From an uncultured Alphaproteobacteria bacterium (GTDB lineage Bacteria; Pseudomonadota; Alphaproteobacteria; Bin95), in NCBI GenBank assembly GCA_937891825.1, contig CALAHN010000100.1, forward strand, positions 1-43,142: a stretch of DNA of 43,142 bases. The letters are read 5' to 3'. The translations under genes and the position numbers were made by a program. The notes below the pieces were generated by a model. It saw only the letters and a program-made list of their open reading frames with translations, made no database searches and was not told the DNA's origin. Positions 2 through 29,833 of this stretch are shown here, piece after piece; the first letter of the stretch is position 1, and every line of letters begins with the position of its first letter.

Positions 2-3000
2 CGCGCCGCCGTCGCCGATCTGGCGCTCCTGACGGAGACGGGCGAGACCGCGCTCATCGCGGAAGGCGTCCGGTTCCAGCGGGTCATGCTGCGCGAGCAG
101 CATCAGCCCGAGCAGCAGGTCTATACCCTTTCGGCGGCGCCGATCGCCGGCGGCGAGGCGGACGCGAAGCCCTTGCCGATCCGGATCGCAGCCCTGGCGG
201 CAGCGGCCCGAAGCCGGCGCGCGCCATCGACCGCCCGTCGCGCCATGCTGGCGGAGCTCAACCGGATCGCGCGCATGAAGGCGCAGCCGCGCCAGGTCGC
301 GGCCTGGCGGACGCTTTGGTCGGACCATCCCGGCTGGTCAGCCGAAGCCGCATTGCTGGCGAGCGTCATCGCCGGCGCGACCCCTGATGACGCCCGGATC
401 GAACACCTGCAGCAAGGCGGGGAAAGCTTCGCGGACCTCCGCAACGGTCTGCAGGCCGCGTTCGATACGGCGGTCGCGGCCGTGCCCAAAGGCCGACGCA
501 TGCGCGTGCTCGAGATCGGCGCGCCGGGCGGGCCGTTCGCCAGCCAGCATCGGGCCGGGATCGCCGCCGGCATCCTCGACTGGACCTATGTCGACCCAGC
601 CGGCGACCGACGCGCCCGCGCCGAACAGGCGGGCGCCGCCGCGCTCGACAGCCTGCCGGAAGACGCGGCCGGGTTCGATTTCGCAATTGCGCCTTTCCTG
701 GCGGACGACAGCGCCCTGGCCGCCATCGCCAAGGCGCTGAAGCCCGACGGTTGCCTGCTGATGGGCGCTGCCGCCCCAAGCGCCTGGTCGGACAAGGTGT
801 GGCAGGCGATGGGCCATCCCGCGGCCTTGTCCGCCAAGGCGTGGCGAGACCGGCTGAAGACCGAATTCATGCAAGCGCCGGTCGCTGCCGTCGTGGCCGG
901 GGCCGGCTTACTGATGCTCGCATCCAAACCCGCTGGCGCAACGCCTGCTGCACAACCCCAGCCAGCGCTGACCGGCGCCTGGCTGATCGCGGCGGCGGCG
1001 GCCGACAGCAAGCCGGCGCGCGCTCTGGCCGGAGCGCTGGAGGCGGCGGGCGCCAGCGCCGGCATTCTGGAAATCGACGAAGAGACGACGCCGGACAGGA
1101 TCGCGAACTTGCTCGCGGGCGTCGATTGCCTTGCGATCGTCGCGGCCGAGGCCGGTCCCGGTTCCCTCTCCGCCGCGATCGCCAGTCTGGCCGCGCCCGC
1201 CCTCGGCGCCGCCAGGACCACGGGCGGCGATGACGCGCCGCGCCTGTTGCTGTTCGCGACCGCGGCGACGCCCCAGGCGGCCGCGGCTTTCGCCATGCTC
1301 GACGTGCTCGCGAACGAAGGCCCAAGCCTCAAACCGCTCGCGATGTCGCTGCCGCTGCTGGGGCTCGGCCCGAAGCGCTGGGCGGCGGAGATCGTCCAGC
1401 GGCTGCCGGGAGCGCTGGCGGCGCGGGACGCCGATGGCGAAGCGGCCCTGCATATCCGGCCGGGCGGCGGCCTTTCCGCACCGCGCCTGACCCCGGCGCC
1501 GCTGCCGGGCGCGCTGGCAGGCGCGCTCGATTTCACGCCCGGCGCGCTCGACAGCATTCGCTGGCGCTCCCGGCCGATGCCGATCGCCACCCTGGCGCCC
1601 GACGAAATCTCGGTCCAGGTGCGGGCCGCCGGGGCGAATTTCAGGGACATCATGTTCGGCCTCGGCATTCTGCCGGAAGAAGCCGTGGAAGCCGGGTTCG
1701 CCGGCGCGACGGTCGGCATGGAAGCGGCGGGCATTGTCGAGGCCGTCGGCGCCGGGGTCGAGCGCTTCAAGCCAGGCGACCGGGTCGTCTGCGTGGCGCC
1801 CGGCTGCTTCGGCGACAGGATCCGGACCAAGGCCAGCGCCGCCGCGCATATTCCCGCCGACCAGGATTTCGCCGCCGCCGCCACCCTGCCGATCGTCGCG
1901 CTGACGGCCTATTACAGCCTGGCGACGCTCGCCCGCCTCGGCCCGGACGACACGATCCTGATCCATGGCGCAGCCGGCGGCGTCGGGCTCGCCGCCATTC
2001 AATATGCGCGCCATGTCGGCGCGACGATCATCGCGACGGCCGGTTCGCCCGAGAAGCGCGCCTTGCTCGCCCTGATGGGCGTCGAGCATATCAGCGACAG
2101 CCGCAGCCTGGCGTTCGTCGATGACGTCCGGCGGTGGACGGGCGGCAAGGGCGTCGATGTCGCGCTGAATTCGCTCGCGGGCGAAGCCATGACGGCGACG
2201 CTTGCCGCCATGCGGCCATTCGGCCGGTTCATCGAACTCGGCAAGCGGGATTTCTTCGAAAACACCGAAGTCGGCTTGAAACGGCTGCGCGAGAATGTCA
2301 GCTATTTCGCCGTCGACGCCGATCAGTTGCTCGCGGCGAAACCGATGCTCGCGGCCAGCTTGTTCCGCGAGGTCGAACAGTTGATCGCTGACCGGGTCTT
2401 CCGTCCCCTGCCCTTCCAGACCTTCCCGGCCGAGCGCTTGCCCGAGGCATTGCGCTGGCTGCAACGGGCGCGCCATATCGGCAAGGTCATCATTGCGGCG
2501 CCGGATGCGCCCCTGAAAGCCAGGCGCACGCTGGCGATCAACCGCAAGGGCACATATCTCGTCACCGGCGGCGCCCAGGGCTTCGGCCTTGCGACCGCCC
2601 GCTGGCTGGCCCGGCAAGGCGCCGGGCGCATTGTCATCGCCAGTCGGCGCGGGCCGGACGGACCGGGCGTCGAGGCTGCGGTCGCCAGTCTGCAGGCGCT
2701 CGGCGCCGACGCGCGCGCGGTCGCGCTCGACGTGACCGACGCCGGGGCCGTTGACCGCCTCGTCAAGCGCATCGACGACCGCCGCTGGCCGCTGAAAGGC
2801 GTCATCCACGCCGCGGCGATCTATGCGGACGGCATCGCCGCCGAAATGTCCCTGGACGCGTTCCGCCGCGCCGTCGCCGTCAAGGCCGATGGCGCAGCCG
2901 CGCTCGACGCCGCGACCCGCGCCCTGGCGAACGAAGGACGGCCGGTCGATCTGTTCATCCTCTATGCGTCGGCGACGACCGTGCTCGGCAATCCGGGGCA

Positions 3001-3751
3001 GGCTAATTATGTTGCCGGCAACGCCGCGATGGAGGCGATCGCCCGCCAGCGCGCCGTCGACGGCCTGCCCGCCATGGCGGTCTCCTGGGGGCCGATCAAG
3101 GATGCCGGCGTGCTGGCCCGGCAAGCCGCCATCATGGACCTGCTTGAACGACAGCTTGGGCGCCCGGCGATGCCGGCGGCGACAGCGCTCGGCCTGTTGC
3201 CGGCGCTCTGGGCTTCCGAGGATCCCGCGCCGATCGTGCTCGACATCGACTGGCGGACGTTCGGCGCCCGCGCCCGCGCCGTTGCGCGGCTGGAGCGCGT
3301 CGCGCTCGCGGCGGCCAGCGGCGATGCCGCGGACTTCCTGAACCTCATTCAAGGCTTGAGCGAGCCCGACGCCCGCGATGTCGTCGCGGAATTGATCGCC
3401 GAGCAGGTCGCGGCCGTGCTCGGCATGGCGCCCGACCAGGTCGATGTGACCCGCCCGGTGAGCGATCTCGGTCTGGACAGTCTGATGGGCATGGAACTGA
3501 AACTCAGCCTGGAGGAGCGGATCGGCGTCGAGCTTCCGGCGATGGCCATTGCCGAAGGCGGCAGCGTCGCCCGGATCGCGGAAAAGGTGACGACGCAATT
3601 GCGGGCCGGCGCCGACAGTAAAACCGACCGGACCCGCAACGAAGTCGACGAAACCTTGCGGCGCCACGCCACGAGCCTGGACCCCGAAGCGGTTGACGAT
3701 GCGATAACGACCTTTCGGCAAACCGACGAGCGCCGTAGATTGCTGTCATGA
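2..3751 (+). CDS. Type I polyketide/fatty acid synthase, 3' part (RkpA-like; DH end-MT-ER-KR-ACP)
   Basis: The frame is open to the left edge, so the gene starts outside the window; 1249 C-terminal residues are present. In order I see the tail of a dehydratase fold (to about nt 150), a methyltransferase-like region with a weak SAM motif VLEIGAPGGPF (about 503-540), an enoyl reductase with NADPH loop HGAAGGVGLAAIQYA (about 1961-2005), a ketoreductase with TGGAQGFGLATA (about 2565-2600) and catalytic Tyr in GQANYVAGNA (Tyr codon 3008-3010), and an acyl carrier domain with the phosphopantetheine Ser in DLGLDSLMG (codon 3479-3481). The enzyme should extend and fully reduce an acyl chain held on its own ACP. 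Followed by an oxoamine synthase and two capsule proteins, it resembles rhizobial RkpA, which makes the lipid needed for K-antigen capsule. A free-standing secondary-metabolite PKS is the alternative. The missing KS/AT domains cannot be judged. Confidence 0.88.
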   Translation, partial: RAAVADLALLTETGETALIAEGVRFQRVMLREQHQPEQQVYTLSAAPIAGGEADAKPLPIRIAALAAAARSRRAPSTARRAMLAELNRIARMKAQPRQVAAWRTLWSDHPGWSAEAALLASVIAGATPDDARIEHLQQGGESFADLRNGLQAAFDTAVAAVPKGRRMRVLEIGAPGGPFASQHRAGIAAGILDWTYVDPAGDRRARAEQAGAAALDSLPEDAAGFDFAIAPFLADDSALAAIAKALKPDGCLLMGAAAPSAWSDKVWQAMGHPAALSAKAWRDRLKTEFMQAPVAAVVAGAGLLMLASKPAGATPAAQPQPALTGAWLIAAAAADSKPARALAGALEAAGASAGILEIDEETTPDRIANLLAGVDCLAIVAAEAGPGSLSAAIASLAAPALGAARTTGGDDAPRLLLFATAATPQAAAAFAMLDVLANEGPSLKPLAMSLPLLGLGPKRWAAEIVQRLPGALAARDADGEAALHIRPGGGLSAPRLTPAPLPGALAGALDFTPGALDSIRWRSRPMPIATLAPDEISVQVRAAGANFRDIMFGLGILPEEAVEAGFAGATVGMEAAGIVEAVGAGVERFKPGDRVVCVAPGCFGDRIRTKASAAAHIPADQDFAAAATLPIVALTAYYSLATLARLGPDDTILIHGAAGGVGLAAIQYARHVGATIIATAGSPEKRALLALMGVEHISDSRSLAFVDDVRRWTGGKGVDVALNSLAGEAMTATLAAMRPFGRFIELGKRDFFENTEVGLKRLRENVSYFAVDADQLLAAKPMLAASLFREVEQLIADRVFRPLPFQTFPAERLPEALRWLQRARHIGKVIIAAPDAPLKARRTLAINRKGTYLVTGGAQGFGLATARWLARQGAGRIVIASRRGPDGPGVEAAVASLQALGADARAVALDVTDAGAVDRLVKRIDDRRWPLKGVIHAAAIYADGIAAEMSLDAFRRAVAVKADGAAALDAATRALANEGRPVDLFILYASATTVLGNPGQANYVAGNAAMEAIARQRAVDGLPAMAVSWGPIKDAGVLARQAAIMDLLERQLGRPAMPAATALGLLPALWASEDPAPIVLDIDWRTFGARARAVARLERVALAAASGDAADFLNLIQGLSEPDARDVVAELIAEQVAAVLGMAPDQVDVTRPVSDLGLDSLMGMELKLSLEERIGVELPAMAIAEGGSVARIAEKVTTQLRAGADSKTDRTRNEVDETLRRHATSLDPEAVDDAITTFRQTDERRRLLS

Positions 3752-5121
3752 CCCAGTCGAACCCAGCATCCCGCGACGCCGTCGAAGCCTTGCTGGCGCG
3801 CGCGCGCGCGCGTCGGAGCTTGTCCCAGCCGACAGCGAACGCCGAAGCGCCGGACGAGCCCGCCGCCCAGATCGGGCAGTCCGCCGACGACATTCCAGCA
3901 TCCAGCTACCGCATCGACCAGTTCGACGCCTATCAGACCTTGAAGCTGCAGAAGGCGCTGGCTGACCAGGCCGGCCTGGAGAACCCGTTCTTCCGGGTGC
4001 ACGAAGGCATCGCGAGCGCCACCAGCCGGATCGACGGCGCCGAGGTGCTGAACTTCGCGACCTACAATTACCTCGACCTGAACGGCCATCCGGCGGTCGC
4101 CGAAGCTGCGTTCAAGGCGATCCGGCAATATGGCGTTTCGGCATCCGCCAGCCGGCTGGTCTCCGGCGAGCGCCCGCCGCACCAGGCGCTGGAGCAAGCG
4201 CTGGCGACCCTCTACGGCGTCGACGACGCTGTCGTCTTCGTCAGCGGGCACGCGACCAACGTGACGGCGATCGCGACGCTGCTCGGCCCGCGCGATCTGA
4301 TCATCCACGACCGTCTGATCCACAACAGCGTCTATGAAGGCGCGAAACTCTCTGGCGCCCAGCGGCGCGGCGTCGCCCATAACGACTATCGCGCCGTCGA
4401 CGCCCTGCTGACCCGGGAACGCGGGCGGTTCGAGAAAGTGCTGATCGTCGTCGAAGGCGTCTACAGCATGGACGGCGACATCGCCCCCCTGGACGAACTC
4501 GTCGCCCTGAAGAAGAAGCACAAGGCCCTGCTGATGGTCGACGAAGCCCATGCGCTCGGCGTGCTGGGCCGCGCGGGTCGGGGCAGCCAGGAGCATTTCG
4601 GCCTTGCCCCCGGCGATGTCGATATTTGGATGGGCACGCTTTCGAAAACGCTCTGCGGCTGCGGCGGGTTCATCGCCGGCTGCTTCGAACTGATCGAGTT
4701 GATGAAGCTGACCGCGCCCGGCTTCGTGTTCAGCGTCGGCATGCCGCCGGCGCTCGCGGCGGCTTCGACGAAGGCGCTGGAATTGATGCTGGAGGAGCCG
4801 GAGCGCGCGGCGGCGCTCCAGGCGAACGGCCGCTATTTCATCGAGCAGGCGAACGCCGCCGGGCTCGAGGTCGGTCGCTCCGCCGGATACAGCGTCGTGC
4901 CGGTGATGATCGGCGGCAGCGTGCGCGCCGCCCGCCTGTCGACGGCGCTCGGCAAGCGCGGCTTGAATGTGCAGCCGATCACCTACCCGGCCGTCGAGGA
5001 AGGCGAGGCGCGCCTCCGCTTCTTCGTGACCTCGGCGCACAGCAAGGCGCAAATCCGGGAAGCCGTGACCCTGGTCGCGGAAACTCTGGCTGAGTTGAAA
5101 GCGACCCACGGCGATGAGTGA
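3748..5121 (+). CDS. Alpha-oxoamine synthase (RkpG/AONS-like, PLP-dependent acyltransferase)
   Basis: A 457-residue fold-type I PLP enzyme of the 8-amino-7-oxononanoate/serine palmitoyltransferase family, which condenses an acyl thioester with an amino acid. Seen motifs: NFATYNYLDLNGHP near residue 100, the PLP Asp/His region MVDEAHALGVLGRAGRGSQ, and the Schiff-base Lys300 in GTLSKTLCGCGGF. It is about 60 residues longer than AONS; the extra N-terminal part is hydrophilic and Arg/Ala-rich. Its ATG overlaps the synthase stop (ATGA), so the upstream ACP is the likely acyl donor. The N-terminal extension is encoded partly by a (CG)8 run at 3797-3812. I infer a role in the capsule lipid anchor, as proposed for RkpG. 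Biotin or sphingolipid synthesis is less likely given the neighbours. Confidence 0.85.
   Translation: MTQSNPASRDAVEALLARARARRSLSQPTANAEAPDEPAAQIGQSADDIPASSYRIDQFDAYQTLKLQKALADQAGLENPFFRVHEGIASATSRIDGAEVLNFATYNYLDLNGHPAVAEAAFKAIRQYGVSASASRLVSGERPPHQALEQALATLYGVDDAVVFVSGHATNVTAIATLLGPRDLIIHDRLIHNSVYEGAKLSGAQRRGVAHNDYRAVDALLTRERGRFEKVLIVVEGVYSMDGDIAPLDELVALKKKHKALLMVDEAHALGVLGRAGRGSQEHFGLAPGDVDIWMGTLSKTLCGCGGFIAGCFELIELMKLTAPGFVFSVGMPPALAAASTKALELMLEEPERAAALQANGRYFIEQANAAGLEVGRSAGYSVVPVMIGGSVRAARLSTALGKRGLNVQPITYPAVEEGEARLRFFVTSAHSKAQIREAVTLVAETLAELKATHGDE
3797..3812. repeat. (CG)8 dinucleotide run inside the oxoamine synthase gene
   Basis: Eight perfect CG units lie at about codons 17-22 and encode alternating Ala/Arg. 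Gain or loss of one unit would shift the frame near the start of the protein and so switch it off. Whether the tract is actually unstable cannot be seen here. Confidence 0.9.
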
Positions 5122-6358
5122 GCCGCGTCGCACCATCCTGTTCCTGCAAGGCCCGATCTCGCCGTTCTTCAAGCGCGTCGGCGAGCGGATTGCGTCGCTC
5201 GCTCCCGGCGTGCGGACGCTCCGCGTCAACCTGAATTTCGGCGACTGGCTGTTCTGGCATGGCGCCGACGCGATCAACTATCGCGGCAGTTTCAAGGCCT
5301 GGCCGGACTTTATCGACGCCTTGATCCTGCGCGAGGGCGTGACGGATGTCGTCATGCTGGGCGAACAGCGGCCCTATCACAAAGCCGCCGCCGCCGCGGC
5401 CCGCGCTCGCGGCACCCGGGTGATCGCGACCGACTTCGGCTATCTCCGCCCCGACTGGATCGCGTTCGAGCTGGATGGCTTGACCGGCGCGTCCCGCATT
5501 CCCCGCGCCGCCGCCCAGGTTCGCGCCCATGCGGCTGGAACGCGCAAGCCGGACCTGACGCCGCAGTTCACCGACCGGTTCTGGCCCCAGGCGCGCATGG
5601 ATATGGCCTATCATCTGAGCGCTTGGCTGCTCTGGTTCCTGTTCCCGGGCTACAAGACCCATCAGCCGGATCATCCGGTGCTGACCTATCTTGGCTCCGG
5701 CTTGCGCATCCTTCTGCAAAAGCGCCGGGCGCGGGCCGCGACCCGCGCGATCGCGGCGGCGGAACAAAGCGCCGGCCCAGTCTTCATCTTTCCCATGCAG
5801 ATGGAGAAGGATTTCTCGATCCGCGCCTATTCGCCCTACCGGGAGCTTCGGACGCCGATCTGCGAGGTCGTCATGTCCTTCGCGGCCTTCGCGCCGGAGG
5901 ACGCGACGCTCATCATCAAGATCCACCCAGGCGATCCAGGCCTCAGGCCGTGGCGGCGCATCGTCGCCAGCATCGCGTCCGACGCCAGGGTCGCCGACCG
6001 GGTGAAATTCATCGACGGCGGCGATCTCGGCCGTCTGATCCGGGCGTCCGCCGGCGTCGTCGTCATCAACAGCACTGTCGGCATGCTGGCCCTCGAGAAG
6101 GGCCGGCCGACGCTGACTCTCGGCCAGGCGGTCTATAACGTCGACGGGATGACGGCGTCCTGCACGCTCGATGCGTTCTGGCAGAACCCGCCGACGCCCG
6201 ACGCCGCGCTCGTCGGGGATTTCATCAAGGTCATCACCAGCACGTTCATGCTGCGCGGCACGTTCTATTGCGACCCCGGCATGACGGCGGGCGCCAATGC
6301 AGCCGCTCGGCGGCTGATCGACCAGTCCGTGAACCAGCCGCTGATGGCGGCCGAATAG
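5114..6358 (+). CDS. kpsS: Capsule polysaccharide biosynthesis protein, KpsS-like
   Basis: A 414-residue cytoplasmic protein of the capsule-synthesis family (Capsule_synth). The N-terminus FLQGPISPFFKRVGE, then NLNFGDWLFWHG and NYRG followed by a Trp, is the signature of KpsS/LipB-type proteins. Known members transfer a first beta-linked Kdo onto the lipid acceptor of group 2 capsules. A conserved C-terminal block with KIHPGDPG and VVVINSTVGMLALEKGRPT matches the second half of the nucleotide-sugar-binding fold. The start overlaps the previous gene by 8 nt, so it is translated with it. No signal peptide or membrane helix is evident. Substrate specificity (Kdo or another sugar) is inferred from the family only. 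Confidence 0.85.
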   Translation: MSEPRRTILFLQGPISPFFKRVGERIASLAPGVRTLRVNLNFGDWLFWHGADAINYRGSFKAWPDFIDALILREGVTDVVMLGEQRPYHKAAAAAARARGTRVIATDFGYLRPDWIAFELDGLTGASRIPRAAAQVRAHAAGTRKPDLTPQFTDRFWPQARMDMAYHLSAWLLWFLFPGYKTHQPDHPVLTYLGSGLRILLQKRRARAATRAIAAAEQSAGPVFIFPMQMEKDFSIRAYSPYRELRTPICEVVMSFAAFAPEDATLIIKIHPGDPGLRPWRRIVASIASDARVADRVKFIDGGDLGRLIRASAGVVVINSTVGMLALEKGRPTLTLGQAVYNVDGMTASCTLDAFWQNPPTPDAALVGDFIKVITSTFMLRGTFYCDPGMTAGANAAARRLIDQSVNQPLMAAE

Positions 6359-6366
6359 CCGCACCG

Positions 6367-7437
6367 ATGCCCCGAGCCGCGGCTCCCGCTCTCCTGGTCT
6401 ATCAAGTGAAATGGTGGAACCGTCGCTCGGTCGCCCTGATGGCGGGCGGACCGACCCGGTTCACCGACCGGACCGACGCCCTGATGCGCGCCGCGACGGC
6501 GGGCAAGCCCGTCGCGGTCTGGGCCTCGCGCGAGCCTGAAGGCCTTGCCGCGCTCGCCTGCAAGGCCGGCGGCGCGCTGATGCGGATCGAAGACGGCTTC
6601 ATCCGCTCGCCCGGCCTCGGCGCCTTGTTCGCCCCGGCCTATAGCCTGATCTTCGACCGGCGCGGCATCTACTACGACGCGACCCAGCCGAACGAGCTTG
6701 AGGACATGCTGGCGGCCGAAGCGTTCGATGCGCCGACCCTGGCGCGGGCGGCGGCCCTCAGCGCGCGCCTCACGGCGCTCGCCGTCAGCAAATATGCCGT
6801 CGGGCGCGGCGCGGCGCCCAGCAGCCCACAGGGTCGGACGCGGGTCCTCGTGGTCGGCCAGGTCGAAAGCGATGCGTCGATCCGGCTCGGCGGCGGCGAC
6901 ACGGTCAACGATAACCTGACGCTGCTGGAGCATGCCCGCGCCCAGCACCCTGCCGCTTGGATCGCCTACAAGCCGCACCCGGACGTTCTGCACGCCGGGC
7001 GGCCGGGGGCCGTTCCCGCCGCCGCCGCAATGCAGTTCGCCGACGCCATCTGGACCGACACGCCCATCGCCTCCGCGCTTGACTGGGCCGAAGCGCTCCA
7101 CACCATTTCCTCGCTGACCGGCTTCGAGGCGCTGCTCCGGGGCGTCGCCGTGTTCGTGCATGGTCGGCCGTTTTATGCCGGCTGGGGCCTGACGACCGAC
7201 CTCACCGCGCAGCCCGACCGTCGGGGCCGCAGTCTGGACCTCGACACGCTCGTGGCGGCGACGCTGCTGCGCTATCCGCGCTATCTCGATCCCATGACCG
7301 GACAACGGATCGAGGCGGAAGGCCTGCTCGACCGCCTGGAAAGCGGCTGGACCGACCCGCTGGCCGGCCGGCCGCTCTGGCACCGGGCGGCCGCGGCGGC
7401 GAAGCGGCGGCTTGGCCCGCTCCGCGGCCGACGTTAG
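6367..7437 (+). CDS. Capsule polysaccharide protein, half-length KpsC-like (RkpJ-type)
   Basis: A 356-residue protein. The frame is open upstream, but the ATG at 6367, eight bases after the KpsS stop, gives a clean N-terminus. Motifs typical of KpsC repeats are present: IEDGFIRSPGLGA, DRRGIYYDAT, VGQVESDASIRLGG, WIAYKPHPDVLHAG, and the C-terminal TGFEALLRGVAVFVHGRPFYAGWGL. Full KpsC of Escherichia coli has two such catalytic repeats and extends the poly-Kdo linker; only one is present here, about half the usual length, as described for RkpJ-type proteins. It probably works with the preceding KpsS-like protein on a short sugar linker. I see no sign of truncation by mutation; the single-repeat form looks natural. 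Confidence 0.85.
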   Translation: MPRAAAPALLVYQVKWWNRRSVALMAGGPTRFTDRTDALMRAATAGKPVAVWASREPEGLAALACKAGGALMRIEDGFIRSPGLGALFAPAYSLIFDRRGIYYDATQPNELEDMLAAEAFDAPTLARAAALSARLTALAVSKYAVGRGAAPSSPQGRTRVLVVGQVESDASIRLGGGDTVNDNLTLLEHARAQHPAAWIAYKPHPDVLHAGRPGAVPAAAAMQFADAIWTDTPIASALDWAEALHTISSLTGFEALLRGVAVFVHGRPFYAGWGLTTDLTAQPDRRGRSLDLDTLVAATLLRYPRYLDPMTGQRIEAEGLLDRLESGWTDPLAGRPLWHRAAAAAKRRLGPLRGRR

Positions 7438-7477: not shown

Positions 7478-8269
7478 ATGACCCGCCGCATCGTCGATAT
7501 ATCCGCGCCCCTTGAAGCTGGCATCAAAAGCGATCCGCCGGGGCTGGAGCCGGAGATCGACTATCTGGATCACGCCATGACGCGGGAGCGCGTCGTCAGC
7601 TTCTTTCCCGGCATGACCGTCGAGGATCTGCCCGACGGAGAGGGCTGGGCTTTGGAGAAGGTCCGCATCTCGACCCATAACGGCACCCATATCGATGCGC
7701 CTTGGCATTTCCACTCGACCATGAACCACCGCCTGAAGCCCGGCGGCGAGCGCGCCTGGACCATCGACGAAGTCCCGCTCGACTGGTGCTTCCGGCCCGG
7801 CGTCAAGTTGGACTTCCGGGCGCTCGCGGACGGCTATGTCGTGACCCCTGCCGACATCCAGGCGGAGTTGCAGCGCATCGGCCACAGCCTGCGGCCGCTC
7901 GATATCGTCGTCGTGAACACCGCCGCCGGCGTCCGCTACGGCGCGGACGACTATGTCGACCGCGGCTGCGGCGTCGGCCGGGACGCGACGCTCTGGCTGT
8001 TGGAGCAAGGCGTCCGCGTCACGGGCACGGACGGCTGGAGCTGGGACGCGCCCTTCTCTCTGACCGCCAAACGCTATGCCGCGGACCCGGACCCAGGCAT
8101 CGTCTGGGAAGGCCACCGCGCCGGCCGCGAGATCGGCTATTGCCACATCGAGAAGCTGCACAATCTGGAAGCTCTGCCCGCGACCGGCTTCGAAATCTCA
8201 TGCCTGCCCGTCAAGATCAAAGCCGCATCCGCCGGCTGGTGCCGCGCCGTCGCGATCTTCGAGGATTAG
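7478..8269 (+). CDS. Cyclase-family metal hydrolase (kynurenine formamidase-like)
   Basis: A 263-residue protein of the cyclase family (PF04199). These metal-dependent hydrolases include arylformamidase (KynB) and some cyclic amide hydrolases. The metal-site motif STHNGTHIDAPWHF is complete (His67, His71, Asp73, His77). The start is set by GAGGA at 7466-7470, seven bases before ATG 7478. It lies 40 nt after the capsule operon on the same strand but has its own ribosome site. Its stop overlaps the converging stop of hyuB by 4 bases. It could hydrolyse a ring-opened formamide or a cyclic amide made by the neighbouring catabolic enzymes. The specific substrate cannot be read from sequence. Confidence 0.8.
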   Translation: MTRRIVDISAPLEAGIKSDPPGLEPEIDYLDHAMTRERVVSFFPGMTVEDLPDGEGWALEKVRISTHNGTHIDAPWHFHSTMNHRLKPGGERAWTIDEVPLDWCFRPGVKLDFRALADGYVVTPADIQAELQRIGHSLRPLDIVVVNTAAGVRYGADDYVDRGCGVGRDATLWLLEQGVRVTGTDGWSWDAPFSLTAKRYAADPDPGIVWEGHRAGREIGYCHIEKLHNLEALPATGFEISCLPVKIKAASAGWCRAVAIFED

Positions 8270-12605: not shown

Positions 12606-13469
12606 TTGTCCTACTGGCGGCCGACAAGCCTTAGAGACGCGCTCGACATTGCATCTGACGGCGCCCGGATCGCCGCTGGATGCACCGATCTGTTCCCCGC
12701 CACCGAACGGCAGCGACTCGACGACGACGGGGAACGGCCGGTGCTCGACATCACGGCGATCCCCGAGATCGACGGGATCCAGCGCACCGACGAGGGCCTG
12801 CGCATCGGCGCCGCCACCCGCTGGACAGCCATTCTGAAAGCGCCGTTGCCCCATGCTTGCCAGGCCTTGCAGGAAGCGGCGGCGGAGGTCGGCTCCGTCC
12901 AGATCCAGAATGCCGGCACGATCGGCGGGAACCTGTGCAATGCCTCGCCGGCCGCCGACGGCGCGCCGCCCTTGCTGATCCTCGACGCCGCCGTCGAACT
13001 GCGTTCGGCGACGGGCGCCCGGACCTTGCCGCTCGGCGCTTTCCTGACCGGGCCGCGCCAGACCGCGCTCGCGCCGGGCGAGATCATGACGGCCGTGTTG
13101 CTGCCCAACGCGGCGCTCGCCGGTCGGTCGCGGTTCCTGAAGCTGGGCGCCCGCAAGCATCTCGTGATTTCAATCGTGATGACCGCCGCGCGGATCGCAT
13201 CCCGCGATGGCCGCGTCGTCGAAGCGGCCATCGCCGTCGGCGCCTGCAGCGCCGTCGCCCAGCGCATCCCGGCGGCGGAGCAGGCGCTGCGCGGCGCCTC
13301 CCTGGACGGCGGTCTATCCCTGATCCCCGAGGACGCCGACTTCGACCGGGCGCTGGCGCCGATCACGGATATTCGCGGCGACGCAGCCTATCGCATGGCG
13401 GCCGCGCGCGTGCTCGCACGGCGCGCCATTCGGGCGGCCGCCATCGCCGAACACCTGGGGGCGACATGA
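12606..13469 (+). CDS. Molybdenum hydroxylase, FAD-binding medium subunit
   Basis: A 287-residue protein of the CoxM/XdhA FAD-binding family. FAD motifs are AAGCTDLFPA near residue 22 (AGGTDL in most relatives) and TIGGNLCNASPAADG near residue 100. It carries electrons from the 2Fe-2S clusters of the partner subunit to NAD or another acceptor. No ATG lies near the conserved N-terminus SYWRPTSLRDAL. The best start is the TTG at 12606, preceded by GGGGCGAGG with short spacing; start confidence is moderate. The open frame further upstream runs antisense through marR and is not used. The stop overlaps the next start (ATGA), so this is the first gene of a four-gene operon. Confidence 0.88.
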   Translation: MSYWRPTSLRDALDIASDGARIAAGCTDLFPATERQRLDDDGERPVLDITAIPEIDGIQRTDEGLRIGAATRWTAILKAPLPHACQALQEAAAEVGSVQIQNAGTIGGNLCNASPAADGAPPLLILDAAVELRSATGARTLPLGAFLTGPRQTALAPGEIMTAVLLPNAALAGRSRFLKLGARKHLVISIVMTAARIASRDGRVVEAAIAVGACSAVAQRIPAAEQALRGASLDGGLSLIPEDADFDRALAPITDIRGDAAYRMAAARVLARRAIRAAAIAEHLGAT

Positions 13470-16210
13470 CGCTGACGCCGACCGTCACGCTGATCCTGAA
13501 CGGCGCCCCGACGACGCTGCACGCCGAAAGCGGCCGACGGTTGAGCGACGTGCTCCGCGAAGACGCCGGCCAGCGCGACGTCAAGGTCGGCTGCGACGCC
13601 GGCGATTGCGGGGCCTGCACCATTCTCTTGAACGACGCCCCGGTTTGCGCCTGCCTGACGCCTGTCATCCAGGCCGAGGGCGCGCGCATCGTGACCGCGC
13701 GCGGCCTGGGCGAGCCGGCCTTGTCGCGCTTGCAGGAAGCCTTCCTCCGCCACGGCGCAGCCCAATGCGGCATCTGCACGCCGGGCATGCTGGCGGCGGC
13801 GGCGGCCCTCCTCGCCGCGGCGCCGACGCCGACCCGCGCCGAAGTCGAAACAGCGCTCGCCGGCGTGCTCTGCCGCTGCACCGGCTACCAGAAGATTGTC
13901 GATGCGGTCGTCGACGCCGCAAATCCCGCCCCCGCCCCGCCGCCGCCCGGGCGCGGCTCTGCGGTCGGTCAGCCCGTCGAACGCATCGACGGCCGGGCCA
14001 AGGTCGACGGCACGGAATGCTTCGGCGCGGACGCCTGGCCCGAGGGCGCGCTGACGGTGCGGGCGGTCCGGTCGCCGCATCATGCGGCCGGCTTCGCATT
14101 CGGCGATCTGGATGTCTGGCGGGCGAGCCATCCGGGCGTCGTCGCCGTGTTCACCGCCGCCGACATTCCCGGCCGCAATTGCTTCGGCGTGATCCCGCAG
14201 CTCGCCGACCAACCGGCGCTGGCCGAGGGCGCCGCGCGTTTCCGGGGCGAGGCCGTCGCCATCGTCGCCGGCCGCCATGGCGCGATGCTGGCGCTCGACC
14301 TCGACGATTTCCCGGTCGCCTGGACGCCGACGGAGCCGCTTCTGTCGCCGGAGGCCGCCCTCGCCGACGGCGCGGCGCTGCTGCATGAAGGACGGCCAGG
14401 CAATATCCTGGTCCAGGGCCGGGTCAGGACGGGCGACCCCGAGGCCGGCATGGCGCTCGCCGCCATCACGATGACCGCGAGCTTTCGGACCAGTTCCGTC
14501 GAACATGCCTATATCGAGCCTGAAGCCGGCGCTGCATGGATGAACGGCGACGTGCTGACCATCGCCGCCTGCACCCAGGCCCCGGCGATGGACCGGGAGG
14601 GCGTCGCCGCAATCCTGGCGCTCCCCGAAGCCCGCGTCCGGATCATCCCGACCGCGACCGGCGGCGGATTCGGATCGAAGCTCGATATCTCACTCCAGCC
14701 CTTGATCGGCCTCGTCGCGCTCAAGACCGGTCAGCCTTGCCGGATGGTCTACACCCGCCGGGAATCCATGGCTTCGACGACGAAGCGCCACCCCGCCGCC
14801 ATGACCGCGACCATCGGCGCGGACGGCGCCGGCCGCATCCTGGCCATGACCTTCGCCGGCGACTTCGATACCGGGCCCTACGCAAGTTGGGGGCCGACGG
14901 TCGCGAACCGCGTGCCCGTGCACGCCTCCGGCCCCCACAAGACGCCGCACTATCTGGCCGAGGCCCGCGCCGTCCACACCAATGGCCCGATTTCCGGGGC
15001 ATTCCGGGGCTTCGGCGTCCCCCAGGCGGCGATCCTGCAGGAAATGCTCTACGACCGGATGGCGAACGCGCTTGGCCAGGACCGCCTGGAGTTCCGGAAA
15101 CTGAACGCGCTCCGCGACGGCGAGACGACCGTCTGCGGCCAGGCGCTGGAAGCCGTCGGCATCCTCGACTGCCTGGAAGCGCTGACCCCGCGCTGGCGGG
15201 CGGCGCTCGCCGTCGCCGAGGCTTTCAATTCGCTCGGCGGCCCGATCCGGCGCGGCGTCGGCGTCGCCTCCTGCTGGTACGGCTGCGGCAACACGAGCCT
15301 CGCCAATCCATCGACGATCCGGGTCGGACTGACGCAAGCCGGCCAGTTGATCCTGCACCAGGGCGCCACCGACATCGGCCAGGGCAGCAACACCGTGATC
15401 GCGCAAATCCTGGCCGACGCCATCGGCCTGCCGCTCGCCGACGTCCGGATTGTCGGCCCGGATACAGCGCTGACGCCGGATGCCGGCAAGACCTCGGCGT
15501 CGCGCCAGACCTTCGTCTCCGGGAAGGCGGCGTTGCTTGCGGGCCGGGCGTTGCGGCAGGCGATCCTCCGGCAAAGCAATATGGGGGAAAGCGCGACGCT
15601 CAGCCTGATTGACGGCTGCGTCGTCCTCGCGGACGGGGCGAGGGTGCAGGCCATCGACCTAGGCCTGCTGCCGGCCGACCGGCACGGCTATGCCCTCTCG
15701 GCGGAGGAAACCTACGATCCGCCGACGCTGCCGCTCGATGCAGACGGCCAGGGCAAGCCCTATGCGGTCTATGGCTACGGCGCCCAGATCGCCGAGGTCG
15801 AGGTCGACCAGGAGTTGGGCACGGTCAAAGTGCGGCGGGTGACTGCGGCCCATGACGTCGGCCGCGCGATCAACCCCCTGCTGGCCGAAGGGCAAATCCA
15901 GGGCGGCGTCGCGCAAGGCCTGGGGCTGGCGCTGATGGAAGAATATCTGGCGGGCCGCACGGAGAACCTGCACGACTATCTGATCCCGACGATCGGCGAC
16001 ATGCCGGAGATCGAGACGATCCTGATCGAAAAACCCGATCCCGAAGGCCCCCTCGGCGCGAAGGGCCTTGGCGAGCATGTGCTGATCCCGACCGCGCCCG
16101 CGATCTTCAACGCCATCCGCCACGCGACCGGGGCGGAAATGACCATAGCGCCCGCCCTGCCCCACCGCGTCCGGGCGGCCATCGTCAAAGCGAGGCAGGA
16201 CACCCCATGA
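13466..16210 (+). CDS. Molybdenum hydroxylase, fused 2Fe-2S and molybdopterin-binding subunit
   Basis: A 914-residue xanthine dehydrogenase/aldehyde oxidoreductase-family protein. Residues 1-85 are a plant-type ferredoxin domain (Cys43, Cys48, Cys51, Cys63). Residues 86-150 hold the second 2Fe-2S cluster (QCGICTPGM with Cys101/Cys104, LCRCTGY with Cys136/Cys138). The rest is the Mo domain with GGGFGSKLD, GAFRGFGVPQA, GATDIGQGSN and the active-site Glu in GAKGLGEH. The architecture and length resemble Desulfovibrio Mop (907 residues), but here a separate FAD subunit precedes it. Such enzymes hydroxylate an aromatic N-heterocycle or an aldehyde with water. The downstream reductase favours a pyridine- or similar N-ring substrate. 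The protein needs molybdopterin cofactor; no Mo-cofactor chaperone gene is in the window. Confidence 0.92.
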   Translation: MTLTPTVTLILNGAPTTLHAESGRRLSDVLREDAGQRDVKVGCDAGDCGACTILLNDAPVCACLTPVIQAEGARIVTARGLGEPALSRLQEAFLRHGAAQCGICTPGMLAAAAALLAAAPTPTRAEVETALAGVLCRCTGYQKIVDAVVDAANPAPAPPPPGRGSAVGQPVERIDGRAKVDGTECFGADAWPEGALTVRAVRSPHHAAGFAFGDLDVWRASHPGVVAVFTAADIPGRNCFGVIPQLADQPALAEGAARFRGEAVAIVAGRHGAMLALDLDDFPVAWTPTEPLLSPEAALADGAALLHEGRPGNILVQGRVRTGDPEAGMALAAITMTASFRTSSVEHAYIEPEAGAAWMNGDVLTIAACTQAPAMDREGVAAILALPEARVRIIPTATGGGFGSKLDISLQPLIGLVALKTGQPCRMVYTRRESMASTTKRHPAAMTATIGADGAGRILAMTFAGDFDTGPYASWGPTVANRVPVHASGPHKTPHYLAEARAVHTNGPISGAFRGFGVPQAAILQEMLYDRMANALGQDRLEFRKLNALRDGETTVCGQALEAVGILDCLEALTPRWRAALAVAEAFNSLGGPIRRGVGVASCWYGCGNTSLANPSTIRVGLTQAGQLILHQGATDIGQGSNTVIAQILADAIGLPLADVRIVGPDTALTPDAGKTSASRQTFVSGKAALLAGRALRQAILRQSNMGESATLSLIDGCVVLADGARVQAIDLGLLPADRHGYALSAEETYDPPTLPLDADGQGKPYAVYGYGAQIAEVEVDQELGTVKVRRVTAAHDVGRAINPLLAEGQIQGGVAQGLGLALMEEYLAGRTENLHDYLIPTIGDMPEIETILIEKPDPEGPLGAKGLGEHVLIPTAPAIFNAIRHATGAEMTIAPALPHRVRAAIVKARQDTP

Positions 16211-18612: not shown

Positions 18613-19404
18613 GCGCGGCCAGTCGCGGACGTTCAGTAGGCCGCCGTCGATCGGCAGCATCGCGCCGGTGATCCAGCGTGCTTCGTCGCTCGCGAGATAG
18701 ACCATGCCCCAACCGACATCCCAGCCGAGGCCTTCGCGGCGGAGCGGGACCATCGCGGCGCGGCGCGCCCGTGCTTCCGTGCCCTGGCTTTCAACCATGG
18801 GCGTGTAGACCGTGCCGACGACGATGCAGTTGGCGCGAATGCCATCCTTGGCATAATCGGCCGCGAGGGAGAGCGTCAGCCCGAGCAGGCCGGCCTTGGC
18901 GGCGGCATAGGCGGCCGCGCCCGTATGGCTCATCAAGCCCAGCACGCCGACGACCGACGAAATGTTCAGGATCGAGCCGCCGCCCGCCCGCTGCATCGCC
19001 GGCAGACAGGCCTTGGACGCCAGCATCGCCGACGTCAGGTTGAGGGCGAGCGTCGCATGCCAGTCGGCTTCCGCGAGCGCGGAGACCGAGCCCGAGCGCC
19101 CGGCGCTGCCGCCGACATTGTTGCAAAGCACGTCAATCCGCCCGAAGCGCGCTTCTGCCGCTTCCGCCATGGCCTGCATGTCGCTCGCCTGGGTGACATC
19201 GGCCGCAAATGACATCGCGACGCCGCCTTCCGCCTCGATCTCCGCCTTGAGCGTCTGGCCGCGCTCCGCCGAACGATTGACCAGAACCAGCTTCGCGCCT
19301 TCCCGCGCCGCCAGGATCGCCATCGCCTTGCCGGTGCCGACGCCCTCCGAACGGGAAGCAGCGCCGGTCACGACCACAACCTTGTCCTGCAAGCGCCCGG
19401 TCAT
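18610..19404 (-). CDS. Short-chain dehydrogenase/reductase
   Basis: A 264-residue classical SDR, a cytoplasmic NAD(P)-dependent alcohol/ketone oxidoreductase. The cofactor loop TGAASRSEGVGTG is at residues 13-25 and is longer than the usual TGxxxGxG. NNVGG follows near residue 95, the catalytic Ser lies in NISSVVG (about 149-150), and Tyr166 and Lys170 in AAAYAAAKAG complete the site. The Ser-Tyr spacing is a few residues longer than usual. Its start overlaps the stop of the transglutaminase-like gene (ATGA), so the two form one minus-strand unit divergent from the VOC gene. Substrate is not deducible; it may oxidise or reduce a hydroxy-acid intermediate of the local pathway. Confidence 0.9.
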   Translation of the reverse strand: MTGRLQDKVVVVTGAASRSEGVGTGKAMAILAAREGAKLVLVNRSAERGQTLKAEIEAEGGVAMSFAADVTQASDMQAMAEAAEARFGRIDVLCNNVGGSAGRSGSVSALAEADWHATLALNLTSAMLASKACLPAMQRAGGGSILNISSVVGVLGLMSHTGAAAYAAAKAGLLGLTLSLAADYAKDGIRANCIVVGTVYTPMVESQGTEARARRAAMVPLRREGLGWDVGWGMVYLASDEARWITGAMLPIDGGLLNVRDWPR

Positions 19405-20126
19405 TGGGCAAGCCCCTTGGCGAAGCCCGGCGGGTAGTAGGCCGCGAACTCATCCCGGATGCGGTCCAGCGGCAGGTCCGACCAGTAGCCATGGTCTTTC
19501 AGGTATTCCATGCGCAGGTTCCGGTCGGCGTCATACTCCTGGAGGATCGCATGGGAGCGGCCGTCGAACTCGGTCGCGCCGACGCCGAACCGGTCGCACA
19601 TTTCCTTGTTGAAGGCCGGCGCCGCCTTGACCCAGCGCCCCTCCAGATACAGCGTCGCGTAGCCGTGATGGATGAAGACGTCGCAGTCGCCCATCTTCTC
19701 CTGAAGCTTGGGCGTCGTGAAGTGATTGATCACGTCGCTGAGGCCGATCGCCGCCGGAATGCCGACGGCGCGCGCCGTCGCGGCCAGCAGCACGGCCTTT
19801 GGAATACAGAACGCGGCCCCCTCCTCGATGACTGTGCTCGCCCGAAAGGCCTTCGGATTGAAATCGATGCGGAAGGCGTCGTATCGGATCCGATCCCGCG
19901 CGGCATAGAACAACGCCACTGCCTGGTCGACAGGATCCTGCAAGCCAGCCGTCGCCTCAGCGGTGAAAGCCGCGACGACGGGGTGTTCGAAGTCGAGAAA
20001 CGGCGTCGGCGCCAGGTAGTCTTCCGGCCGACGCGGCGCGCCATAGGGAGTGAAAATCACGGGGGTGGGTCCGCCCATTGCAGAATACGGGATGACAGTG
20101 TCGCGTTTTGGGGCTTTGGAATCCAT
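19401..20126 (-). CDS. Transglutaminase-like domain protein
   Basis: A 241-residue protein with a transglutaminase/papain-like core. The nucleophile candidate is Cys107 in EEGAAFCIPKAVLL and the His is at 153-154 in FIHHGYATLYLEGRWVK. The third position, normally Asp in a DPT-type motif, reads AAPAFN (168-173), so Asp is absent and Asn173 may serve instead. Similar bacterial proteins act as peptidases or amide hydrolases, but none of their substrates applies with certainty. I used the ATG at 20126; Met17 (20078) is possible. It leads the two-gene unit with the SDR. No signal peptide, so it should be cytoplasmic, perhaps acting on an amide or ester intermediate. Confidence 0.75.
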   Translation of the reverse strand: MDSKAPKRDTVIPYSAMGGPTPVIFTPYGAPRRPEDYLAPTPFLDFEHPVVAAFTAEATAGLQDPVDQAVALFYAARDRIRYDAFRIDFNPKAFRASTVIEEGAAFCIPKAVLLAATARAVGIPAAIGLSDVINHFTTPKLQEKMGDCDVFIHHGYATLYLEGRWVKAAPAFNKEMCDRFGVGATEFDGRSHAILQEYDADRNLRMEYLKDHGYWSDLPLDRIRDEFAAYYPPGFAKGLAQ

Positions 20127-26348: not shown

Positions 26349-28757
26349 TTAGCTGCGCAGGGTCCCGCCGGTCGCCTTTTCGACGGCGGCGACGATCTTG
26401 GCGGAGAGCGCCTCGATGTCGGCTTCCGTCAGGGTCGCGTCCTTCGGCTGTAACGTCACCGCGATCGCGAGCGATTTCTTGCCGGGCTCGACGCCCTTGC
26501 CCTGATAGGCGTCGAACGCTTCCACGCCCGAAATCAGTTGCCGGTCGACATTGCGCGCCGCAGCGACGGCTTTCTGGGCCGGCAGTTCGGCATCGACCAG
26601 GAAGGCGAAATCGCGGCCGACTGGCAGCAGCGCATCCAGCTTGAGAAACGGCTTGGTCTTGCCGCTCGCCTTCTGCTTCGGCGCCGGGGCATGGTCCAGG
26701 AAGACCTCGAACGCGACGACCGGTCCGTCGATATCGTAGGCGGCTGCGATGGCCGGATGGATTTCCCCGAACTGCGCGAGCATGGTCTTGCCCAGGCGGA
26801 CCATGGCCGAGCGGCCGGGATGCAGCCAGGAGGCCGCCGCCTGATCCAGCGGCGCTTCCGTCGGCGCGCCGATGGCCGCCAGCACGCCCAGCACGTCGGC
26901 TTTCGCGTCGAACGCATCGACCGGACGGCGCCCGCCGGTCCAGTGCCGGCCGACAGCGTCGCCCCAGCGGACGCCGGCGGCGACCCAGTCCTGACCGGTT
27001 TCGCTTGGGTCCCGGTATGCCGGGCCGACCTCGAAAAGCGCGCCATCCCGCTGCGCGCGGGCGATATTGCGCCCGGCCGCGGCCAGAAGGTTCGGAATGA
27101 TCGACGGCCGCATCGTATCGAGGTCGGCGCTGATCGGGTTGTCGAGCAGCATCGCGGGCTCGCCGCCGCCGAAGCGTTGCGCGTCCGCCTGCTTGAGGAA
27201 GGAGAACGTCAGCGCCTCCACCATGCCGCGGCCGGCGAGCGCCCGGCGCGCCCGCACCCGGCGCGACTGCGTGAGCGACAGGGCCTGCTCCGGCTGGTCG
27301 GCGAGGCGCGGCAAGGGCACGGTCGGGATGTGATCGAAACCGACGATGCGCGCGACCTCCTCAACCAGGTCGGCCTCGCCGTGAATATCCGGACGCCAGG
27401 AGGGCGGCGTCACTTCGATCAGATCGCCCCCGTCCTTCGGCTGGAAGCCGAGGGCGGCAAGAATGCGGATCTGCTCGGTCTTCGGGACGTCGATGCCGGC
27501 CAGAGCTTCGGTCCGCGACGGGCGGAGCGATATGTTGCGGCGCCATGCCGGGGCTTCGCCGGCGAACACGACGTCGCTCGCCTCGCCGCCGCACAGTTCG
27601 AGGATCATCGCCGTCGCGGCTTCGATGCCGGGCTTCAGCGATTCCGGATCGACGCCGCGCTCGAACCGGTAGCGCGCGTCGGAATGGACGCCGAGCCGGC
27701 GGCCGGTCGAGGCCGTCCGCAGGGGATCGAACCACGCGGCCTCGAGGAAGACGGACGTGGTCGCCTCCGTACAGCCCGAGACAGCGCCGCCGATAATGCC
27801 GCCAAGCGAGTGCGCCTGCGCCTGATCGCCGACGACCGTCATGCCTTCAGCCAGGGCATAGGTCCTGTTGTCCAGGGCTTCCAGGGTCTCGCCAGGCCGG
27901 GCGAGCCGGACCAGCACATCGCCCGACAGCGTGTCAGCGTCGAACACATGCAGCGGCCGGGCCGTGTCCATGGTGAAAAAATTCGTGATGTCGACCAGCG
28001 CCGAGATCGGGCGGAGGCCGATTGCGCGCAGCCGGTCCTGCAGCCACTTGGGGCTTGGGCCGTTCTTGACGCCCCGGATCAGCCGGCCGGCGAACGCGGC
28101 GCAAGCGTCCCGCGCGTCATCGGGAAAGTCGAACACGACGCGGATCGGGCTTTCGAAGGCTGGCGGAATCGCCTGGTCCCAACCCGGCGCCCGCTTCAGG
28201 TTGCCGAAGCCGGCCGCCGCCAGGTCGCGCGCAATGCCGCGCACGCCCGCGCAGTCGCCGCGGTTCGGCGTCAGGCCGATTTCGATGACCGGATCGTCGA
28301 GGCCCGCGATCTTGGCGTAGGGCGCGCCCACCGGCACGCCGGCCGGCAGGTCGATGATGCCTTCATGGTCGTCGGAGAGCATCAGCTCCCGCTCCGAGCA
28401 CAGCATGCCCGATGAGGCGACGCCGCGGATGACCGCGTCCTTCAATGTCATGTCGCTGCCGGGGATGTAGCTGCCGGGGCCGGCGAAGACGCCGATCATG
28501 CCTGCCCGCGCGTTGGGCGCGCCGCAGACGACCTGCACTTCCTTTTCGCCGGTATCGACGATGCAGACCTGCAGCCGGTCGGCATCGGGATGCGGCGTCG
28601 CGGAGAGCACCCGCGCCGTCTTGAAGGCGGCGAGCGCCGGGCCCTTGTCGGTGACGCTGTCGACCTCAAGGCCGATCATCGTCAGCTTGGCGCAGATATC
28701 CTCCAGGCTCGCATCCGTATCCAGATGCTCCTTGAGCCAGCCGAGGGTGAACTTCAT
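26349..28757 (-). CDS. pheT: Phenylalanyl-tRNA synthetase beta subunit
   Basis: An 802-residue beta chain of the (alpha-beta)2 PheRS, normal bacterial length. In order: N-terminal domain [20 protein letters not shown], the tRNA-binding OB fold (about 39-150, [23 protein letters not shown]), the B3/B4 editing module, the B5 domain, the catalytic-core-like region, and the C-terminal FDX-ACB anticodon-binding domain ([20 protein letters not shown]). It charges tRNA-Phe with PheS in the cytoplasm and edits mischarged Tyr. The start overlaps the pheS stop by four bases. It is the last gene of the rpmI-rplT-pheS-pheT unit and faces the CDGSH gene with only five bases between stops. Confidence 0.98.
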
Positions 28758-29833
28758 CGGTGCAACCCCCCGAGCGCGCCCGGAATGTCGAGCGGCACGA
28801 ACCCATAATGGCGAAGCCAGCGCAGATCGGAATCGTAGAACGTGCGCAAATCCGGAATGCCGTATTTCAGCATGGCGATCCGCTCGATCCCCATGCCGAA
28901 GGCGAAGCCCTGGTACTTGTCCGGATCGAGGCCGCAGTTCGCGATCACCTTCGGATGCACCATGCCGGAGCCCAGAATTTCGAGCCAGTCGTCGCCGTGG
29001 CCGATCTTGAATTCGCCGCCAGCGCGGGTGCAGCCGATATCGACCTCGGCCGACGGCTCCGTGAACGGGAAATGGCTTGCCCGGAAGCGGACCGGCAGGT
29101 CGGCGACCTCGAAGAACGTACGGCAGAATTCGATCAGGCAGCCCTTGAGATGGCCCATGTGGCTGGCCTCGTCGATGACCAGGCCTTCGACCTGATGGAA
29201 CATCGGCGAATGGGTCGCGTCATGGTCCGAGCGGAAGGTCCGGCCGGGCACGATCACGCGAATGGGCGGCTTTTCGGTCATCATCGTGCGGATCTGCACG
29301 GGGCTCGTGTGGGTTCGGAGCACGGGCCTGGCCCCATCCGCCCCGGCGCGGAGATAGAACGTATCCATCTCCTGGCGGGCTGGATGCTCCGGCGGGATAT
29401 TGAGCGCGGTGAAGTTCTTCCAGTCGTCCTCAAGATCCGGGCCTTCGGCGACGCGGAAGCCCATCTGGCCGAAAATCTGCACGATCTCGTCGATCGTCTG
29501 GCTGATCGGGTGGATGCGGCCTTCGGCTTCGGGGCGGACCGGCAGGGTCAGGTCGATCCGCTCGGCCGCGAGCCGCGCATCAAGCGCCGCGCCGTCAAGC
29601 CGCGCCTTGCGCGCGTCGATGGCCGTTTCGACGGCCGTCTTCAAGGCGTTGACGCTTTGACCGTAGTCCCGGCGCTGCTCGGGCGGGAGATCGCCCAGGG
29701 TTTTCATCAGCGCGCCAAGCCGGCCCTTACGGCCGACAGCCGCAACGCGCGCGGCCTCAAGAGCGTCCAGCGTATCGGCGCTTTCGACGGCGGCCAGCAA
29801 CTCCGCCTGGACTGCTGCCAAGTCGGCGGTCAT
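28754..29833 (-). CDS. pheS: Phenylalanyl-tRNA synthetase alpha subunit
   Basis: A 359-residue catalytic alpha subunit. The N-terminal coiled-coil (about 1-90) precedes the class II core. Motif 2 is seen in [18 protein letters not shown] and motif 3 in [20 protein letters not shown]; the Phe-pocket region [12 protein letters not shown] is intact. It forms the Phe-adenylate and transfers it to tRNA-Phe with PheT. It lies 96 bases after rplT, and the gap contains a strong GC hairpin without a U-run. The unit order is the standard bacterial one. Confidence 0.98.

Follow-up and report, generated by a model that had tools for sequence, protein, structure and literature searches.

The window analysed here is a 43,142-nucleotide contig (C100) from an alphaproteobacterial genome that is 99.97% complete in 163 contigs. 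It begins with four coupled plus-strand genes (positions 2-7437) that encode the C-terminal half of a polyketide synthase (PKS), an alpha-oxoamine synthase (AOS), a KpsS-like transferase of 3-deoxy-D-manno-oct-2-ulosonic acid (Kdo) and a single-module KpsC. On sequence trees, the lipid-touching KpsS follows the lipid synthase and the Kdo-extending KpsC does not, a pattern that supports the long-standing view that the capsule is anchored by a special amino lipid and not by an ordinary membrane phospholipid. On balance we favour reading the four genes as a minimal capsule anchor operon of the rkp-1/wcb type, in which the amino lipid made by the PKS and the AOS would be the acceptor of KpsS. A previous sequence-only reading of the window had proposed the coupled operon and its link to the rhizobial rkp genes; the positions, overlaps and domains of the genes and their conserved order in a genome of the same genus (G013) bore out the operon, and the PKS-AOS cassette proved to be of the rkp-1/wcb type.

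KpsS and KpsC trees compared with the presence of AOS

According to PMC10148158, KpsS adds the first Kdo, the C-terminal module of KpsC (KpsC-C) a beta-(2->7)-linked Kdo and the N-terminal module (KpsC-N) a beta-(2->4)-linked Kdo, and the acceptor of E. coli KpsS is phosphatidylglycerol. If KpsS acts on the PKS/AOS lipid, then as the enzyme that touches the lipid it should follow AOS in sequence, whereas KpsC, which touches Kdo, should not. Among 398 Pseudomonadota genomes, AOS (called at E <= 1e-100) was found in 19 and KpsS (E <= 1e-15) in 58. KpsS was present in 14 of the 19 AOS-positive genomes versus 44 of the other 379, and the 14 KpsS proteins from AOS-positive genomes took ranks 1-11, 13, 14 and 17 of 58 in similarity to the window KpsS; the Fisher and rank tests on this survey ignore relatedness.

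The KpsS tree contained 90 rows (42 AOS-positive and 48 AOS-negative), and all 42 positives fell together with three negatives in one clade with a support of 97 in the Shimodaira-Hasegawa-like approximate likelihood ratio test (SH-aLRT). The AOS label required 3 changes on this tree, whereas shuffled labels required 30 on average, and E. coli KpsS, the phosphatidylglycerol-using type, was placed outside the AOS clade. Three entries were left out: locus L063 (from the same genome as G013), locus L111 (KpsS too short) and genome G743 (a near copy of G745). All trees were quick ones, with the LG+G4 model and SH-aLRT as the only support.

The contrast became clear when both enzymes were taken from the same 71 genomes or loci (28 positive, 43 negative): the AOS label changed 2 times on the KpsS tree and 11 times on the KpsC-C tree, and about 22 times with shuffled labels. 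The possibility that the clustering of KpsS was an artefact of locus choice is countered by 60 genomes chosen without regard to AOS proximity (17 positive, 43 negative), which kept the contrast with 2 changes for KpsS and 7 for KpsC. Nor is KpsC merely poorly resolved, because the approximately unbiased (AU) test rejected a single AOS-positive clade for KpsC (p 0.0002) and did not reject it for KpsS (p 0.23). In genomes G473 and G537, KpsS stays in the AOS clade even though, as estimated from contig sizes, it lies at least 100 kb from AOS. We did not find this contrast between KpsS and KpsC relative to AOS in the open-licence literature searched.

Single-module KpsC and loss of the N-module

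The KpsC gene (6367-7437, plus strand; Capsule_synth, E 2.7e-37) has its best start at ATG 6367, 8 bases past the KpsS stop, and carries the QxxxD motif as QVESD in its translation. Its best relative of solved structure was 6mgd, the beta Kdo 2,7 transferase of Thermosulfurimonas dismutans (E 8.3e-55; E. coli KpsC-N, E 7e-40), and it is 42% identical to the C-half of E. coli UTI89 KpsC versus 36% to the N-half. The "half KpsC" of the sequence-only reading is thus, as judged from these comparisons, a C-module of the beta-(2->7)-Kdo transferase type. The window gene has one module only, not the two of a full-length (GT107) KpsC. The earlier reading had allowed for a full-length KpsC/KpsS set elsewhere, but no Capsule_synth gene besides the window KpsS and the half KpsC was found in the genome. 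Because there is no other such protein, the linker is predicted either to end with the (2->7)-linked Kdo or to consist of (2->7) linkages throughout. The S. meliloti polymer described in PMC5539429 is a beta-(2-7) Kdo homopolymer.

Among the genomes with KpsC that were examined, the N-module was present in 42 of 44 AOS-negative ones (two partial) versus 6 of 16 AOS-positive genomes, a tally that excludes G554, whose gene is cut by the contig end (Fisher p 5.6e-6, ignoring kinship). Since most of the AOS-positive genomes without the N-module sit in one KpsC clade together with the two-module G171, the independent losses are few and this p value is overstated. Decay of the N-module is visible in G294, G515, G522 and G638, whose N-parts are mutually similar but unrecognised, and another unrecognised N-part is shared by G629 and the named locus L105. 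Long N-terminal parts of KpsC with an N-module beyond Pfam recognition were seen in the AOS-positive alphaproteobacterial loci L218, L219, L220, L221, L025, L246 and L105. Loss or decay of the N-module is common in AOS-positive alphaproteobacteria.

The KpsS, PKS and AOS proteins

The KpsS-like gene (5114-6358, plus strand) encodes a predicted beta-Kdo transferase for the first Kdo on the lipid. The protein belongs to the Capsule_synth family (PF05159, E 1.6e-67), and its translation contains QMEKD, an instance of the QXXXD motif that PMC10148158 gives for beta-Kdo transferases. An AlphaFold2 model made from 23 KpsS sequences had a mean pLDDT of 93.1 and resembled WbbB (Z 18.6, rmsd 4.0, 287 residues) and the KpsC modules (Z 15.9-16.4, with 257 residues at Z 16.4) more closely than the remaining GT-B enzymes among the matches listed. 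UDP-GlcNAc 2-epimerases occupied the top Foldseek rows, but at a TM of only ~0.3, and WbbB and KpsC lead by Z. Family, beta-Kdo transferase fold and QxxxD motif, all the KpsS features tested, were therefore found. Between the KpsS groups, differences per position average highest at residues 155-204, a descriptive value taken with no control. This segment surrounds two helices of the model, 156-172 and 188-200, which could face the lipid.

The PKS gene (2-3751, plus strand) is open at its 5' end at the contig edge and was assigned with Pfam and NCBIfam to the mono-modular type I synthases of the RkpA/WcbR type. It covers a zinc-ADH-type ER (~1538-2494), a KR (~2549-3103, E 5.7e-52) and an ACP (~3392-3583, E 2.7e-13), all on the plus strand. 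The KS and AT domains, which the sequence-only reading had suggested looking for upstream, were found on contig C106 (1-3423, minus strand), where a KS-AT-DH half of 1141 aa runs off the contig end. The two halves (1141 + 1249 aa) compare with 2391 aa in the intact G013 homologue, and, judged against this copy, they make up a KS-AT-DH-ER-KR-ACP mono-modular synthase of the ~2400-2600 aa class. The translations contain DTACSS and HGTGT in the KS half, GLDSL in the ACP and GTLSK in the AOS, which we take to be the motifs proper to these domains.

The AOS gene (3748-5121, plus strand; RkpG/WcbT type; Aminotran_1_2, E 7.4e-53) shares with serine palmitoyltransferase (SPT) and other alpha-oxoamine synthases the fold type and the pyridoxal phosphate lysine, K300 within GTLSK, which is invariant across 13 homologues. 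Unlike these enzymes, it scored below every NCBIfam equivalog cut-off tested (BioF, KBL and SPT models): 353.6 against 426.45 for bioF, 314.2 against 460 for glycine C-acetyltransferase, and 292.1 against 640 and 288.8 against 500 for two SPT models. It would be coupled to the ACP of a PKS, whereas SPT and its relatives use free acyl-CoA or a small ACP. The viral contigs searched contained no relative of the AOS, and a PHROGs search with it gave no match. Its identity to Spt of E. coli UTI89 is 34%; in that strain (L306, 12177-16264) an operon of fatty acyl-AMP ligase, epimerase, ACP and serine palmitoyltransferase lies ~30 kb from the kps cluster.

Conservation of the gene set and its relation to known systems

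The genes are tightly packed, the PKS stop being overlapped by the AOS start in ATGA and the AOS and KpsS-like genes overlapping by 8 bases. In G013 the PKS, AOS, KpsS and half KpsC are intact, in the same order and with overlapping ends, and a cyclase follows. A putative PF04199 cyclase also stands 40 bases downstream of KpsC in the window (7478-8269, plus strand), so that it lies directly 3' of the set in the two genomes of the genus where the set was found (L017, 3136-3927, in the other); it may belong to the operon as a fifth gene.

With a profile from 13 AOS proteins we retrieved the best 80 named loci, to which the following counts refer. They come from Thiothrix, Pseudomonas, Bordetella, Burkholderia, Nitrosomonas, Halomonas/Vreelandella, Ensifer, Rhizobium, Methylobacterium, Desulfovibrio, Nitrospira and others, with AOS proteins 49-82% identical to that of the window; the best relative was L063, from an uncultured Alphaproteobacteria metagenome-assembled genome. 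By a distance rule the PKS is directly upstream of AOS in 66 of the 80, and the arrangement is therefore not a chance one. Among the other 14 are short contigs and six planctomycete loci (L117, L122, L127, L130, L135 and L137; 49-54% identity, no PKS upstream). Capsule genes were found within 10 kb of AOS in 40 of the 80 loci, and in 33 of the 55 that are at least 18 kb long. The gene set is a minimal variant of the known rkp-1/wcb-type cassette, real and well conserved.

That an rkp-1/wcb-type operon supplies a lipid carrier for the capsule is an idea already published. In PMC3557214 and PMC4881576, rkpA and rkpGHIJ are assigned to making, modifying and transporting a lipophilic carrier or anchor; according to PMC11766843 the Cobetia wcb operon, beside kpsSC, serves lipid carrier biosynthesis, and PMC3908369 treats wcb and rkp as orthologous. 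In the open-licence literature on the rhizobial and wcb systems we found a special lipid carrier proposed but not its identity. The swf sponge PKS was dropped as a comparison, as its authors set it apart from wcb/rkp (PMC3908369).

As in the window, an RkpA-type PKS is followed by AOS in the rkp-1 region of Sinorhizobium (rkpA PKS/FAS, where FAS is fatty acid synthase, rkpG AOS, rkpH, rkpI, rkpJ), and in the Ensifer loci L133 and L139 KpsS is in the same cluster as the PKS-AOS pair. The window set differs from the rkp-1 region by its coupled single-module KpsC, and from rkp-1-type Ensifer loci by lacking both a short-chain dehydrogenase/reductase (SDR) and a PF00884 gene. Of the 80 loci, 30 have an SDR belonging to one BLAST cluster and 32 a PF00884 sulfatase-fold protein (L131, L133, L139 and 29 others); Ensifer loci carry both, with the PF00884 protein where rkpI is expected. 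PF00884 takes in phosphoglycerol and phosphoethanolamine transferases, and the protein could for this reason add a phosphate head group. The wcb clusters (wcbR, wcbT; Burkholderia, Cobetia and others) likewise have the PKS-AOS pair near kpsS/kpsC, but also have polymer and export genes nearby, whereas the export genes of the window genome are on a separate contig. E. coli group 2 KpsS and KpsC share PF05159, the QxxxD motif and the fold with the window proteins, but E. coli KpsC has two modules instead of one and E. coli KpsS does not belong to the AOS clade.

Proposed pathway and alternative explanations

The content, order and overlaps of the genes, their domains, catalytic motifs and conservation, and the co-segregation of KpsS with AOS are observed; the acyl chain, the amino acid, the product, the acceptor and the linker structure are what we infer here. 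The iterative PKS would make a largely reduced acyl chain on its own ACP, and the translationally coupled AOS would join this chain to an amino acid, releasing a long-chain, sphingoid-like alpha-aminoketone that is perhaps reduced or given a head group by enzymes encoded elsewhere. A co-evolved KpsS would then put the first beta-Kdo on this lipid, and the lone KpsC C-module would add beta-(2->7)-linked Kdo, giving a linker that is either short, at about two Kdo, or a chain of (2->7) linkages only. The polymer would be made by other glycosyltransferases and exported by the KpsMTED-like system of contig C157. More tentatively, it is possible that group 2 type capsules have two anchor chemistries: phosphatidylglycerol with E. 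coli-like KpsS, and a PKS/AOS-made sphingoid-like amino lipid with a dedicated KpsS clade in alpha-, beta- and gamma-proteobacteria and beyond, part of the latter group having lost the KpsC N-module and possibly keeping a beta-(2->7)-Kdo-only linker. The KpsS clade would then be a sequence marker for capsules expected to carry a lipid other than phosphatidylglycerol. The clade also names pairs of clade and non-clade KpsS for direct comparison, and the KpsS/KpsC contrast makes the anchor question directly testable; the answer is relevant to rhizobial symbiosis and to vaccines or inhibitors directed against a capsule anchor that is supposed to be universal.

Several observations weigh against an amino lipid anchor and leave room for another explanation, which we regard as rather unlikely: the anchor is ordinary phosphatidylglycerol, and the product of the PKS and AOS is a different aminolipid of the envelope, which aids export or surface retention and travels with the capsule genes, so that mutants lose the polymer indirectly. 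The title of Fraysse 2005 reportedly claims a phospholipid anchor for S. meliloti. Recent papers (PMC11666461, PMC12220298) state that (lyso)phosphatidylglycerol is conserved as the anchor in Kdo-linked capsules with ABC export. Next to the window set there is no gene for a ketone reductase or for adding a head group; the sole window SDR of the BLAST cluster mentioned above is apparently the one at 18613-19449 (minus strand), 11 kb off. KpsS lies within ~15 kb of AOS in 11 of 17 genomes, so linkage explains part of the co-segregation and could produce it without acceptor specificity, and the trees do not separate acceptor choice from long co-inheritance. The AOS-negative genomes G267, G667 and G689 carry KpsS of the clade type, and their AOS paralogues are only 30-43% identical. 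In addition, 10 of the 27 AOS-positive genomes from two surveys have no KpsS: PF05159 is entirely absent from G201, G257, G288, G291, G336 and G368, and neither KpsS nor KpsC matches were found in G424, G539 (71% complete), G684 and G686. As the PKS KR adjoins AOS in nine of these ten (all but G686), the lipid is not solely a KpsS acceptor and must have another role there. What argues against the phosphatidylglycerol explanation is that KpsS and not KpsC follows AOS, even where the two are unlinked (G473, G537), and that the window and G013 alike have the lipid genes coupled to the genes of the two Kdo transferases. The proposal of the sequence-only reading that the linker is built on a PKS-derived amino lipid is thus compatible with all findings and gains indirect support from the trees, but it is not new, and the genomes without KpsS narrow it.

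The same KpsS-less genomes, together with the 22 of 55 long named loci that have no capsule gene within 10 kb, would also fit a diffusible or secondary-metabolite aminoketone whose adjacency to kps reflects shared regulation or a shared island. We consider this improbable in view of the capsule synthesis or export genes near AOS in the majority of long loci, the gene overlaps with KpsS/KpsC in both genomes of the genus and the deficiency of rkp-1 mutants in K-antigen capsular polysaccharide (KPS; PMC4881576). Very improbable, in our view, is that the half KpsC is what remains of a decaying gene and that the machinery for the linker no longer works: only the C-module is left and N-module decay is visible in other genomes, but the reading frame is intact, QxxxD is kept, the G013 counterpart is 67% identical and likewise single-module, and PMC10148158 describes lone KpsC modules in Thermosulfurimonas dismutans. 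Of these explanations, the capsule anchor operon with the amino lipid as KpsS acceptor is the one we prefer.

Among the KpsS-less genomes, G291 and G368 (99% complete, PKS/AOS-positive) show an absent or weak KdsB match along with the absence of PF05159, suggesting that the lipid is used there without KpsS/KpsC.

Export, Kdo supply and neighbouring genes

Contig C157 of the window genome carries a KpsD-like gene (PF02563 + SLBB), a KpsM-like gene (ABC2_membrane), an ABC ATPase domain (KpsT-like) and a KpsE-like gene with a Wzz match below the family cut-off, and KdsB was found above cut-off on C89. A second export pair, of the Wza/Wzc-like exopolysaccharide type, is on contig C163 (L013). Ordinary neighbours in the window are a molybdenum hydroxylase (12680-16210), the phenylalanyl-tRNA synthetase subunits (26349-29833) and a porin (33286-34317).

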